Shown: piece after piece, positions 42,598 to 48,321 of the stretch
Layout of the letters: the number at the start of each line of letters is the position of its first letter
Numbering within the stretch: the first letter of the stretch is position 1
Assembly: GCF_017834145.1 (NCBI RefSeq)
Contig: NZ_JAFIDA010000001.1
Location: forward strand, 124,001 to 188,000
From: Leucobacter exalbidus
GTDB lineage: Bacteria > Actinomycetota > Actinomycetes > Actinomycetales > Microbacteriaceae
Reading direction: 5' to 3'
DNA: 64,000 nucleotides
Made by a program: the position numbers and the translations under genes
Notes under the pieces: model-generated
Databases searched by the model: none
What the model was told of the DNA's origin: nothing
Seen by the model: the letters and a program-made list of their open reading frames with translations, nothing else

Positions 42598-43680
42598 GTG
42601 CACCGCAACCCACTCCTCATCCTCGCTATCACTGTGCAAGGCCTCAGCTACCGCGACGCCGCCTTCGCTCCCCAATCCCGAGCACCACATACCTCCCCGC
42701 ACCAGACCGCCCCTGAGATACGCGACCGTATTCTCGCGCTTCGCGAGTCCCTCACCGTTGAGGGCAGCGATGCCGGCGCCGACACGATCTGCGCCTATCT
42801 CGCCCGAGAAGACATTGTTGTTTCGCGCACCACGGTCTGGCGTGTGCTGCAGCGCGCGCACCACATCACCCCGCAACCCCAGAAACGACCACGGTCATCA
42901 TGGAAGAGATTCGAAGCCTCGCAACCCAACGAGATGTGGCAGTCTGACTTCACGCACTGGCAACTCACTAGCGGCCAGGAAGTCGAGATTGTGGGCTGGC
43001 TTGATGACCATGCCCGGTTCCTCACGCACCTCACCGTCCATCACCGGGTGACCGGCAAAATCGTGGTCGAGACATTCACCACGGCGGCACAAACACACGG
43101 GTTTCCCGCGTCAACATTGACCGATAACGGGATGGTCTACACCGCCAGGCTGGCGCGCGGGGGACGTCAGGCCGGCCTCAACGCGTTCGAAACGTTACTC
43201 AGAATCGAGGGCATTACCCAGAAGAACGGACGCCCGTATAAGCCGACCACGCAAGGCAAGATCGAACGGTTCTGGCAGACACTCAAAAAGTATTTGGCTC
43301 AGCACCCCGCCGACACGATCGCTGATCTGCAAAACGTTTTGGACCAGTTTCGTGAGTTCTATAACGAACAGCGGCCACACCGGGCACTGGGGCGCAAAAC
43401 GCCGGCGTTTGCGTATGCGTTGATCCCGAAAGCCAGCCCCGCGAAACCATCATCGCCAGCGTTATGGCAAGTGAGGTACGACATTGTCGATGCCAACGGG
43501 AGTATCACGCTCCGATATGCCGGCAAGCTACGCCACCTGGGCATCGGGAGAGGGTATGCCCGCACGGAAGTGATTTGTCTCGTGAACGGCGACCACGCGA
43601 CCGTGATCACGCATACCGGGGAAGTCTTGGGCGAATACACGATCGATACCCAAAAGAACTACCAAAAGAAAAACACCTGA
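42598..43680 (+). CDS. IS481-family transposase
   Basis: 360 residues, GTG start. An N-terminal helix-turn-helix region (residues 15-110, VSRTTVWRVLQRAHHI) precedes an rve-type DDE integrase core: Asp in MWQSDFTHW (near 115), Asp in STLTDNGMVYT (near 178), Glu in QGKIERFWQTLKKYL (near 225). The C-terminal ~80 residues (WQVRYDIVDANGSITLRY) are a typical IS481 tail. It looks intact. The stop codon lies inside the element's own terminator stem. Confidence 0.93.
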   Translation: MHRNPLLILAITVQGLSYRDAAFAPQSRAPHTSPHQTAPEIRDRILALRESLTVEGSDAGADTICAYLAREDIVVSRTTVWRVLQRAHHITPQPQKRPRSSWKRFEASQPNEMWQSDFTHWQLTSGQEVEIVGWLDDHARFLTHLTVHHRVTGKIVVETFTTAAQTHGFPASTLTDNGMVYTARLARGGRQAGLNAFETLLRIEGITQKNGRPYKPTTQGKIERFWQTLKKYLAQHPADTIADLQNVLDQFREFYNEQRPHRALGRKTPAFAYALIPKASPAKPSSPALWQVRYDIVDANGSITLRYAGKLRHLGIGRGYARTEVICLVNGDHATVITHTGEVLGEYTIDTQKNYQKKNT

Positions 43681-43706
43681 ACCCACGTTTCCGTGGGTTC
43701 AGGTGT
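43673..43706 (+). terminator. Terminator at the IS right end
   Basis: ACACCTGAACCCACG (43673-43687) pairs exactly with CGTGGGTTCAGGTGT (43692-43706), loop TTTC. The stem includes the transposase stop. Confidence 0.7.
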
Positions 43707-43733
43707 CCATGATGTCCTGAGACATCACAATAG

Positions 43734-43815
<82 letters not shown>

Positions 43816-44960: not shown

Positions 44961-45986
44961 GTGACATCTGTTTTACCGATTGGGTTTGAAATCGGATCGA
45001 TGGTGGTGCTCGTTGGCATCCTGTTAGTCGACCTGCTGCTGATCGTGCGCAAGCCCCACGCGCCGTCGATGCGCGAAGCGAGCCTGTGGGTCGGGTTCTA
45101 CGTGGCGCTCGCCCTGGCGTTCGCAGGCTGCATCTTCCTGCTCGGCGATGTGCAGCACGGCACCGAGTTCTTGGCCGGCTGGCTCACCGAGTACAGCCTG
45201 TCGATTGACAACCTGTTTGTCTTCGTGCTGATTCTGGCCGCGTTTAAGGTTCCGACGGCGTACCAGCAGCGCGCTCTGATGGTGGGCATCGTGCTCGCCC
45301 TGATCTTCCGTGGCGTCTTTATCTTGCTCGGTGCCGCGCTCATCGAGCGCTTCATCTGGATCTTTTTCATCTTTGGTGCGTGGCTGATCTGGACTGCCTG
45401 GCAGCAGGTCAAGCCGGGCGGCGAAGAAACCGCCGGCGACAGCTGGCTGATTCGCCAGGTCAAGAAGGTTATGCCCATCACCGACGACTACGACGGCGGC
45501 AAGATGCGCACCATGGTCGACGGCAAGCGCATGTGGACCCCCTTCATTCTGGTGTTCGTGTCTCTCGGCACCACCGACCTCCTGTTCGCGCTCGACTCGA
45601 TCCCCGCGATCTTCGGCATCACGCAGAGCCCGTTCATCGTCTTTACCGCGAACGTGTTCGCCCTGATGGGTCTGCGTCAGCTCTACTTCTTGCTCGGCGG
45701 CCTGCTTGAACGCCTCGAATACCTGAAGTACGGCATCGCCTTCATCCTCGCGTTCATTGGCGTGAAGCTGGTCTTCCACGCCCTCCACGAAAACGAACTG
45801 CCGTTCATCAACGGCGGCGAGCACGTCACCTGGGTGCCCGATATCAGCACCATCACGTCGCTGCTCGTGATCCTCGGCGCAATGACCATTGCTACCGTGG
45901 CCAGCCTCATCAAGGCGAACCGCGAGGCAAAGGCGAAGGGCGAGCACCTGCACCTGGGCGCAGCAGAAATGCACGAAGACGCGTAA
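44961..45986 (+). CDS. TerC-family membrane protein (metal efflux type)
   Basis: 341 residues from GTG 44961; GTG 44952 and an ATG at 44889 are in frame but the latter falls inside the riboswitch. About nine membrane helices. The TerC pattern is seen as WLTEYSLSIDNLFVFVLI (acidic Asp in a helix) and STTDLLFALDSIPAIFGIT (the second Asp pair); these acidic residues bind Mn2+ in Alx/MeeF-type exporters. It is controlled by the manganese riboswitch just upstream, so Mn export is the likely role. Confidence 0.92.
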   Translation: MTSVLPIGFEIGSMVVLVGILLVDLLLIVRKPHAPSMREASLWVGFYVALALAFAGCIFLLGDVQHGTEFLAGWLTEYSLSIDNLFVFVLILAAFKVPTAYQQRALMVGIVLALIFRGVFILLGAALIERFIWIFFIFGAWLIWTAWQQVKPGGEETAGDSWLIRQVKKVMPITDDYDGGKMRTMVDGKRMWTPFILVFVSLGTTDLLFALDSIPAIFGITQSPFIVFTANVFALMGLRQLYFLLGGLLERLEYLKYGIAFILAFIGVKLVFHALHENELPFINGGEHVTWVPDISTITSLLVILGAMTIATVASLIKANREAKAKGEHLHLGAAEMHEDA

Positions 45987-46036
45987 CCCTGCGCGTGCTT
46001 GAGCTTGGCCCCGTCGCCCGGTGTTAGACTCGTCAA

Positions 46037-46081
46037 ATGCGATCGTGGCGAGTGCTTCTTCACCGCCGCGACGGGGCTTAA
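46037..46081 (+). CDS. Putative 14-aa leader peptide of leuCD
   Basis: ATG 46037 opens a 14-codon frame encoding [14 protein letters not shown] and TAA at 46079. It has two adjacent Leu codons, both the rare CTT. TAGACT at 46025-46030 is a -10 site only six bases before the ATG, the spacing of leaderless actinobacterial transcripts. The 5' arm of a downstream hairpin overlaps the last codons. This is the layout of a ribosome-mediated attenuator for leucine genes; it rests on sequence reading alone. Confidence 0.5.
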
Positions 46082-46103
46082 CCCATTTGGTCACCCGTCG
46101 CGG
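46066..46103 (+). promoter_or_regulatory. Attenuator-like hairpins before leuC
   Basis: CCGCGACGGG (46066-46075) pairs exactly with CCCGTCGCGG (46094-46103). The first arm can also pair in part with GCCCCGTCGC (46008-46017), but that lies upstream of the inferred transcript start. The second arm ends at a GGAG (46102-46105) set seven bases before the in-frame ATG 46113. No T-run follows, so control of translation is more likely than termination. Confidence 0.5.
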
Positions 46104-46196
46104 AGTTCAATTATGGCCGAACTTACCGCGCAGGGACCGAATAATTTCGCGCAGCGCAGCGTTAGAGAAGACGCACAGACCGAAAGAGAAGCACGC

Positions 46197-47714
46197 ATGA
46201 GTGAGCAGAACGTTCAGAGCAACGCGGGCACGGGCACGGCCCGAACCCTCGCTGAGAAGTTGTGGGATGATCACGTTGTAGTCAAGGGGGAGGACGGGCA
46301 GCCCGACCTCATCTACATCGACCTCCACCTCATCCACGAGGTGACGAGCCCGCAGGCCTTCGATGGCCTGCGCGTGATGGATCGGCCGCTGCGCCGTGTC
46401 GATCTGATGATCGCGACCGAGGATCACAACACCCCGACCCTCAACATCACCAAGCAGATCGAAGACCCGACGAGCCGCCTGCAGATTGAAACTCTGCGCG
46501 ACAACGTCAAGGAGTTCGGCGTGCGTTCGCACCCGCTCGGTGACAAAGAGCAGGGCATCGTTCACGTGGTGGGCCCGCAGCTGGGGCTGTCGATGCCCGG
46601 CATCACCGTGGTGTGCGGCGACAGCCACACATCGACCCACGGTGCGTTTGGTGCGCTCGCGTTCGGCATCGGCACGAGTGAGGTCGAGCACGTCATGGCG
46701 ACGCAGACTCTGCCGTTGAAGCCGTTCAAGACGATGGCGATCAACGTCGAGGGCGAACTGCGCCCCGGCGTCACCGCGAAGGACATCATCCTCGCCGTGA
46801 TCGCCAAGATCGGCACCGGCGGCGGGCAGGGCTACGTGCTCGAGTACCGCGGCTCGGCCATCCGTGCGCTGTCCATGGACGGCCGCATGACGATGTGCAA
46901 CATGTCGATCGAGGCTGGCGCCCGCGCCGGCATGGTCGCCCCCGACGAGACGACGTTTGAATACGTTAAGGGCCGCCCCCACGCACCGCAGGGTGCCGAC
47001 TGGGATGAGGCTGTTGCGTACTGGCGCACGCTTCCCTCAGACGAGGGCGCCGTCTTTGACAAGGAAATCTTCATCGATGCGGCCGAGCTCGAGCCGTTCG
47101 TGACCTGGGGCACGAACCCGGGCCAGGGCGTACTGCTGAGTGAGAATGTGCCCGATCCGGCGCAGATTGCCGATGCCAACGAGCGCGCCGCAGCTGAGCG
47201 TGCGCTCGAATACATGGATCTCGCCGCGGGCACCCCGATGAAGGAGATTCCGGTTGACGCGGTCTTCATGGGCTCATGTACCAACAGCCGCCTCGACGAC
47301 CTGCGCACCTTCGCCGACATCATCAAGGGCAAGCAGAAAGCTGACGGCGTGCGCCTGATGGTCGTGCCCGGTTCGGCGCGCGTGCGCCTCGAGGCCGAAG
47401 CCGAGGGGATCGACAAGATCGTTGAGGCATTCGGCGGCGAGTGGCGCTTCGCCGGCTGCTCAATGTGCCTCGGCATGAACCCTGATCAGCTCGAGCCGGG
47501 GGAGCGTTGCGCGTCAACGTCGAACCGTAACTTCGAGGGTCGCCAGGGCAAGGGCGGGCGCACGCACCTCGTGTCGCCGCTCGTGGCAGCGGCCACCGCG
47601 ATTCGCGGCACGCTGTCAAGTCCGTGGGATCTCAGCGATGATGCCGCCAAGGGCATCACCCACGATGCCATTTCAGACAGCACCGCAGCATCCTCCGAGA
47701 AGATTGGGGCGTAA
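46197..47714 (+). CDS. leuC: 3-isopropylmalate dehydratase large subunit
   Basis: 505 residues from ATG 46197. An in-frame ATG at 46113 has a better ribosome site but its 28 codons use AGA and AAT codons unlike the gene; I prefer 46197. The aconitase fold is complete: [19 protein letters not shown], the first cluster Cys in [12 protein letters not shown] and the other two in CSMCLGMN. It binds a [4Fe-4S] cluster and isomerises 2- to 3-isopropylmalate in leucine synthesis with LeuD. Confidence 0.96.
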
Positions 47715-47718
47715 CGCC

Positions 47719-48321
47719 ATGGAGAAATTCACCACGCGCACCGGCGTCGCGCTGCCGCTGAAGCGGTCGAACGTCGACACCGACCAGATCATCCCCGCCG
47801 TCTTTTTGAAGCGCGTCACCAAGACCGGCTTCGATGACGCCCTGTTCTACCACTGGCGCCAGGATGAGAACTTCATTCTCAACCAGCCCCAGTTTGCTGG
47901 CGCCGAGATTCTCGTCGCCGGCGCCGATTTTGGCACCGGATCCTCACGCGAGCACGCCGTCTGGGCGCTGCGCGATTACGGCTTCAACGTCGTCATCTCG
48001 CCCCGCTTCGCCGACATCTTTCGCGGTAACGCCGGCAAGCAGGGCTTGCTGGCGGCAGAGGTGACCGAGGCCGATGTTGAAAAGCTGTGGGCCGTGATCG
48101 ATGCCGATCCCGGGACAAAACTTACCGTGAGTCTTGAAGACTGCACGGTGACGGCCGGAGATCTCACCGTGCCGTTCCAGGTTGACGAGTACACCCGCTG
48201 GCGTTTGCTAGAGGGACTCGACGACATTTCTCTGACGCTTCGGGACGAGGGTGTAATCTCAGAATTTGAGAAGCGCCGTCCGTCTTGGATGCCGACGACA
48301 ACCCCGGTGGAGGCCGCGTGA
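47719..48321 (+). CDS. leuD: 3-isopropylmalate dehydratase small subunit
   Basis: 200 residues from ATG 47719 ([26 protein letters not shown]). [22 protein letters not shown] is the substrate-binding motif. It forms the active heterodimer with LeuC, encoded four bases upstream. Its stop overlaps the murA start (GTGA). Confidence 0.96.

Follow-up and report, generated by a model that had tools for sequence, protein, structure and literature searches.

A LEU element with a leaderless leucine leader peptide precedes leuCD in Leucobacter exalbidus

Positions 46022-46199 of the window, i.e., the 64,000-nt stretch of Leucobacter exalbidus DNA that was analyzed (the genome around it comprises 3.18 Mb in a single contig), are a LEU element, which combines a leaderless leucine leader peptide with a pseudoknotted RNA and precedes leuCD, not leuA. 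The LEU element has been described upstream of leuA in Actinobacteria; it comprises a pseudoknot, a leader peptide with a Leu run, and a base stem that this run forms with the Shine-Dalgarno sequence (Seliverstov et al., 2005; PMC1262725). The leuC site is a second-site copy of this actinobacterial element. It probably functions via stalling of the leader ribosome under leucine starvation, which would free the leuC Shine-Dalgarno sequence from its pairing with the Leu codons. An earlier note on this DNA had missed the known LEU element of leuA and its three copies in the genome, and had proposed a single-hairpin translational attenuator. A part of that proposal is retained here, namely, a leaderless leucine leader that is shared by Microbacteriaceae and that in all likelihood both senses leucine via stalling and controls leuC translation. 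The single-hairpin scheme is not supported.

Results

Organization of the leuC upstream region

The features of the region are compiled in Table 1. The leader ORF reads ATG CGA TCG TGG CGA GTG CTT CTT CAC CGC CGC GAC GGG GCT TAA, and its start codon follows exactly six bases after TAGACT (46025-46030), which is part of the extended -10 promoter. The two Leu codons are adjacent, and most relatives have three or more adjacent Leu codons. CTT is scarce in the neighboring genes (11 of 154 Leu codons), compared to 143 of the 275 Leu codons of the leaders. Counted from the Leu codons, the perfect 10-bp hairpin begins at the sixth base, and its 3' arm extends into GGAG (46102-46105). The 14-codon ORF with its rare CTT codons and the hairpin, both of which the earlier note had pointed out, are found exactly where it had placed them.

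A scan of both strands of the window for this layout (TANNNT, 5-7 nt, ATG or GTG, a short ORF with adjacent Leu codons, and within 8 nt a perfect hairpin of 9 bp or more) yielded the leuC upstream site as the single match, and no match was obtained in 100 Markov-shuffled windows. The layout is not due to chance. The leuC gene is closest to Leucobacter. Its start codon was chosen by comparison with relatives; it is located at 46197 and is preceded by the Shine-Dalgarno sequence GAGAAG at 46186-46191. The gene in front of leuC is terC-like, and upstream of it the window contains a transposase-like ORF (42598-43815, of the integrase-core type by eye) beside a tRNA gene (43734-43815, minus strand).

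Table 1. Positions of the LEU element features and the downstream genes in the window.
Feature	Position	Strand	Remark
Extended -10 promoter TGTTAGACT	46022..46030	+	Predicted transcription start at or beside the leader ATG
Leader peptide ORF, 14 codons and stop	46037..46081	+	Layout kept in nearly all elements
P1 5' strand GTGCTTCTT (Val-Leu-Leu codons), anti-Shine-Dalgarno	46052..46060	+	9-bp duplex
Regulatory Leu codons CTT CTT	46055..46060	+	Three or four Leu codons in most relatives
P2 hairpin 5' arm CCGCGACGGG	46066..46075	+	Covariation
P3 pseudoknot 5' strand TTTGGTCA, in P2 loop	46086..46093	+	8-bp complement to 46114-46121
P2 hairpin 3' arm CCCGTCGCGG	46094..46103	+	Covariation
P3 pseudoknot 3' strand TGGCCGAA	46114..46121	+	Overlaps non-conserved ATG 46113
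P1 3' strand GAGAAGCAC, holds leuC Shine-Dalgarno GAGAAG	46186..46194	+	Complementarity to Leu run
leuC, 3-isopropylmalate dehydratase large subunit	46197..47714	+	NCBIfam TIGR00170 above cut-off; start by comparison
leuD, small subunit	47719..48321	+	NCBIfam TIGR00171 above cut-off; downstream of leuC, same direction

Membership in the LEU element

A comparison of leuC upstream regions in Microbacteriaceae, as suggested in the earlier note, recovered the layout, Leu run and hairpin included, in 24 of 35 loci. These loci have a -10 box (mostly an extended TGn box) with the leader start 5-7 nt further on, a short peptide with LL, LLL, or LLLL followed by GCCGCGACG(A/G)G, and a stop codon in the loop; their 3' part comprises C(C/T)CGTCGCGG, a GG(C/T)(C/T)GA-like motif, and a separate leuC Shine-Dalgarno sequence and start codon. 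The common architecture is thus a leaderless peptide of 13-18 amino acids with a Leu run, the hairpin P2, the pseudoknot P3, and the base stem P1, and nearly all elements share the leader layout M-(R/L)xxx-LLL(L)-x-(C/S/G/R)-R-(D/G)-(E/G)-(A/S/T)...*. The spacing is strongly conserved. TANNNT and the start codon are 6 or 7 nt apart in 69 of 70 leuC-linked elements, TGn precedes TANNNT in 76 of 84 leuC and 33 of 45 leuA elements, and P2 follows the last Leu codon after exactly 5 nt in 55 of 70 leuC and 33 of 37 leuA elements.

The site was assigned to the LEU element, at a new gene, because the structural features of that element were tested and are present: the base stem between the Leu run and the Shine-Dalgarno sequence of the gene (9 bp, 46052-46060 with 46186-46194), the internal helix and the pseudoknot, and homology with leuA-linked copies. 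A leucine biosynthesis gene is also found downstream, leuC together with leuD in place of the original leuA; the identity of the downstream gene was regarded as a matter of distribution, not of structure. A covariance model built from 26 copies (25 from leuC, one from leuA) detected leuA with 84.2 bits, the leuC site with 80.3 bits, and a leuA paralog with 45.8 bits in this genome. The E-value of the leuC site over the whole genome is 3e-16, for a model trained partly on this very sequence. The 24 related loci mentioned above show the element independently. The mean identity between leuA and leuC elements is 64%, as high as that among leuC elements. A search of 45980-46260 against Rfam 15 at gathering and permissive thresholds (E up to 5) gave no family match, and a literature search, in which subscription journals were sparsely covered, found no report of a leuC-upstream leader peptide in Actinobacteria.

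Base pairing and its conservation

P1, the pairing of the Leu codons with the leuC Shine-Dalgarno region, has a predicted energy of -11.9 kcal/mol and is part of the unconstrained minimum free energy folds of 46037-46210 and 46050-46210. Complementarity to the Leu run is highest exactly in the segment that ends at the start codon. For a comparison across species, the P1 score was that of the best helix that the 18 nt preceding P2 (plus two) can form with the region upstream of the start codon. The score of 70 leuC elements was 16.06, versus 14.84 +/- 0.32 after Shine-Dalgarno regions had been swapped across species (0 of 1000 permutations), and shuffled Leu segments scored 12.15. In leuA elements the score was 14.69 versus 13.32 after swapping (1 of 1000). 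Neither set of permutations controls for relatedness. CTT and CTC are complementary to GAAG and GAGG of the Shine-Dalgarno sites, and this would explain the usage of these two Leu codons.

In an alignment of 72 sequences, 99.6% of the P2 cells are paired and 6 of the 10 pairs exhibit two-sided changes. The covariation score of P2, from an alignment fitted to the covariance model, is 0.206, versus 0.102 +/- 0.008 for shuffled and at most 0.071 for slid controls. The putative pseudoknot P3 would comprise eight pairs between TTTGGTCA and TGGCCGAA in the window, two of them G-U. The swapped sequences reached the observed value in 0 of 1000 permutations for leuA elements and in 56 of 1000 for leuC elements, so that a P3 in the latter appears marginally supported. 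Downstream of P2, the spacer spans 92-108 nt at five loci, the present one and four related ones (together L081, L001, L002, L003, and L057), compared to 36-63 nt at most others; for L148 and L157 the call was 21 nt. The additional spacer in the window (46122-46185, from the pseudoknot to the leuC Shine-Dalgarno sequence) is genus-specific and contains a predicted small hairpin, GCGTTAGAGAAGACGC.

Predicted accessibility of the Shine-Dalgarno sequence

Free-energy folding of 46037-46210 led to P1 and P2 (-62.7), with P1 formed by exactly 46052-46060 and 46186-46194. A fold that ends at 46200 favors another leader hairpin that uses the 5' arm of P2 (-61.8). The nested model, in which the pseudoknot cannot be scored, thus places the two folds at similar energies. 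This alternative hairpin 5' of P2 is genus-specific by eye and disappears once the fold reaches 46210, and thus it was kept as a caveat only.

When the RNA starts at 46050, the bases of GAGAAG are predicted to be unpaired with probabilities of 0-0.12. When it is masked through 46071, mimicking a ribosome stalled at the Leu codons, these probabilities rise to 0.77-0.99 for the first five bases and to 0.33 for the last G. For RNA that includes the entire leader, the model predicts that the Shine-Dalgarno sequence is sequestered by no more than about one half, most of its bases being unpaired with probabilities of 0.5-0.64. Among the 70 leuC elements, masking increased the mean accessibility of the Shine-Dalgarno sequence from 0.39 to 0.51 (p = 1e-4), and after shuffling of the Leu run the sequestration was largely lost (0.49, p = 7e-5). 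The effect of masking across species is modest, and it is weaker in leuA elements.

Distribution

This genome contains three LEU elements, at leuA, at a leuA paralog, and at leuC. The paralog is about 55% identical to LeuA, its own element is located at G000:C1:1559941-1560047 (-), and a leuA paralog with its own LEU element is also present in four further genomes (G003, G024, G051, G121). At least one LEU element was found in 145 of 150 genomes of Microbacteriaceae, and in at least 65 of the 150 an element directly precedes leuC, as counted by matching element coordinates to leuC positions by hand. Of 198 genomes of the phylum, 19 have a match to the covariance model, and the matches identified outside this genome lie upstream of leuA, leuB, or leuS. 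None of 45 leuC loci from families other than Microbacteriaceae has a LEU element before leuC.

In 43 of these 45 loci a divergently oriented homolog of NdgR/LtbR (57-100% identity to the query) is located beside leuC. No NdgR/LtbR gene is found beside leuC in the 35 Microbacteriaceae loci, and a search for NdgR in 100 Microbacteriaceae genomes gave no match above 40% identity. In 11 of the 35 loci neither a LEU element nor NdgR/LtbR is present beside leuC. A tree of the elements contains 12 switches between leuA and leuC over 109 tips, and the elements are too short for dating the duplication.

Discussion

The element before leuCD most likely works as follows. When leucine is ample, ribosomes would complete the 14-codon leader and depart, and the vacated RNA would fold into P2 and P3. 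This folding would draw the distant leuC Shine-Dalgarno sequence to the Leu-codon run, P1 would form, and leuC would be poorly translated. When charged Leu-tRNA is scarce, a ribosome would stall on CTT CTT and cover the 5' strand of P1 and the start of P2, so that the leuC Shine-Dalgarno sequence would remain free. While the computations demonstrate conservation, leaderless spacing, covariation of P2, complementarity between Leu run and Shine-Dalgarno sequence, and homology to the leuA elements, we infer the transcription start, the stalling, the leucine effect with its direction and size, and control at the level of translation. If the model is true, the switch requires no competing pair of hairpins, since the Leu codons are the anti-Shine-Dalgarno sequence.

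The enterobacterial leu leader (Rfam RF00512) likewise contains a leader peptide with Leu codons in front of the leu operon. In contrast to this classical leucine attenuator, the leuC site has neither a terminator/antiterminator pair nor a U-tract. P2 is not an intrinsic terminator, because no U-tract follows it, and thus the intrinsic terminator before the gene that characterizes a classical transcription attenuator is absent at leuC, unlike in the leuS leaders L203-L208. Translational attenuators of the ermC/cat type unmask a Shine-Dalgarno sequence by ribosome stalling in the leader. However, the leuC site would sense starvation and not a drug, and at the leuC site the stalled codons themselves would be the anti-Shine-Dalgarno sequence.

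The closest relative is the LEU element of leuA (PMC1262725), with which the leuC site shares the upstream Leu-run ORF, the base stem of Leu run and Shine-Dalgarno sequence, the internal helix, and the pseudoknot. One covariance model detects the leuC site and the leuA copies in this and other genomes. The differences are that the present copy precedes leuC and that the spacer from pseudoknot to Shine-Dalgarno sequence is about twice as long in this genus. References cited by Seliverstov et al. (PMC1262725) disagree about how the LEU element works, and its mode of action has never been settled within the literature searched. In the Streptomyces coelicolor leuA leader, mutations of the Leu codons were at odds with the predictions of classical attenuation (PMC1262725); such mutations would also break P1. 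RNA-seq of Streptomyces lividans has shown that the leuA leader LeuL1, MRFGLLLLSCRGEGL, is transcribed leaderless and lacks a typical terminator, and the leuS leader LeuL2, MRAVRLLLSEPR, has one (PMC8079986). Both are leaderless leaders of 12-15 amino acids with LLL(L), like that of the leuC site. LeuL1 and the leuC site both lack a terminator, in contrast to LeuL2 with its Rho-independent terminator. No leuC leader was reported in that study of S. lividans (PMC8079986). Leaders of Microbacteriaceae leuC genes such as MRFGLLLLSCRDES are nearly identical to the leuA leader MRFGLLLLSCRGEGL, and the model matches before leuS, in genomes of 7-10 Mb, encode MRAVRLLLSEPR or a close variant.

Three other explanations have to be weighed. 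According to the earlier note, GGAG (46102-46105) and ATG 46113 form the leuC initiation site, which is closed by P2 and opened by a stalled ribosome. In this species and L001 the ATG is indeed in frame with leuC and lies 7 nt behind GGAG. However, the comparison with relatives shows that this start is not conserved, and it was rejected. At the equivalent position L002 has an in-frame TAA, the ATG is out of frame in L003 and L057, and L012 has an out-of-frame GTG. In other genera the start is absent; there, 40-60 nt separate GCGGAGT from the start codon of leuC, which is preceded by a Shine-Dalgarno sequence of its own. GGAG belongs to P2, and ATGGCC at 46113 is part of the 3' strand of the pseudoknot (46114-46121). 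A single hairpin as the gate of leuC is very improbable, because its arm does not contain the leuC Shine-Dalgarno sequence, with which the Leu-codon run itself pairs. The longer spacer of the Leucobacter copies explains why the true Shine-Dalgarno sequence had been overlooked.

It is also unlikely that a regulatory protein, for which Seliverstov et al. suggested a DEAD-box helicase, ML1624 (PMC1262725), binds the folded element and that the leader peptide is of secondary importance. In favor of this view, which was argued in PMC1262725, the primary sequence of P2 is strongly conserved beyond pairing, and 4 of its 10 pairs are invariant in 72 sequences. However, conservation is among the highest for the Leu run, for its distance to P2, for the leaderless start, and for the stop codon, and no protein partner is known. 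We consider control of transcription similarly doubtful, i.e., that Rho or a pause terminates before leuC when the ribosome terminates or is absent, and that a stalled ribosome protects. The sister elements upstream of leuS end in real terminators (L203-L208; PMC8079986), and Rho has been proposed for other leaders without terminator (PMC1262725). However, the leuC and leuA types have no terminator, and their Leu run covaries specifically with the Shine-Dalgarno sequence, a relationship that Rho would not need. Release of the Shine-Dalgarno sequence from the Leu codons by a stalled ribosome is the most probable explanation.

The distribution of the LEU element suggests that, in one family, a protein regulator was replaced by an RNA element, and such a replacement at leuC in Microbacteriaceae can fairly, though not conclusively, be inferred. 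A more detailed scenario is tentative and stands somewhat below an even chance: Microbacteriaceae would have lost the IclR-type regulator NdgR/LtbR, and a copied LEU element would have taken over the control of leuCD; in this copy a starved ribosome would directly cover the anti-Shine-Dalgarno sequence, which the Leu codons themselves form. With these results the LEU element is no longer confined to one gene but covers a small leucine regulon, comprising leuA, the leuA paralog, and leuC, together with leuB and leuS leaders of other families. The leuC copies add another collection of sequences, which drift independently and show covariation between the Leu run and the Shine-Dalgarno sequence; this reduces the mechanism to a simple swap experiment. 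LEU-type leaders before leuB occur in two other families of the order (L200, G234:C2:337292-337394 -; L202, G211:C1:863384-863480 +), and both loci contain a second small conserved ORF (...ARQALQESMDxRxQG*) between the leader and leuB.
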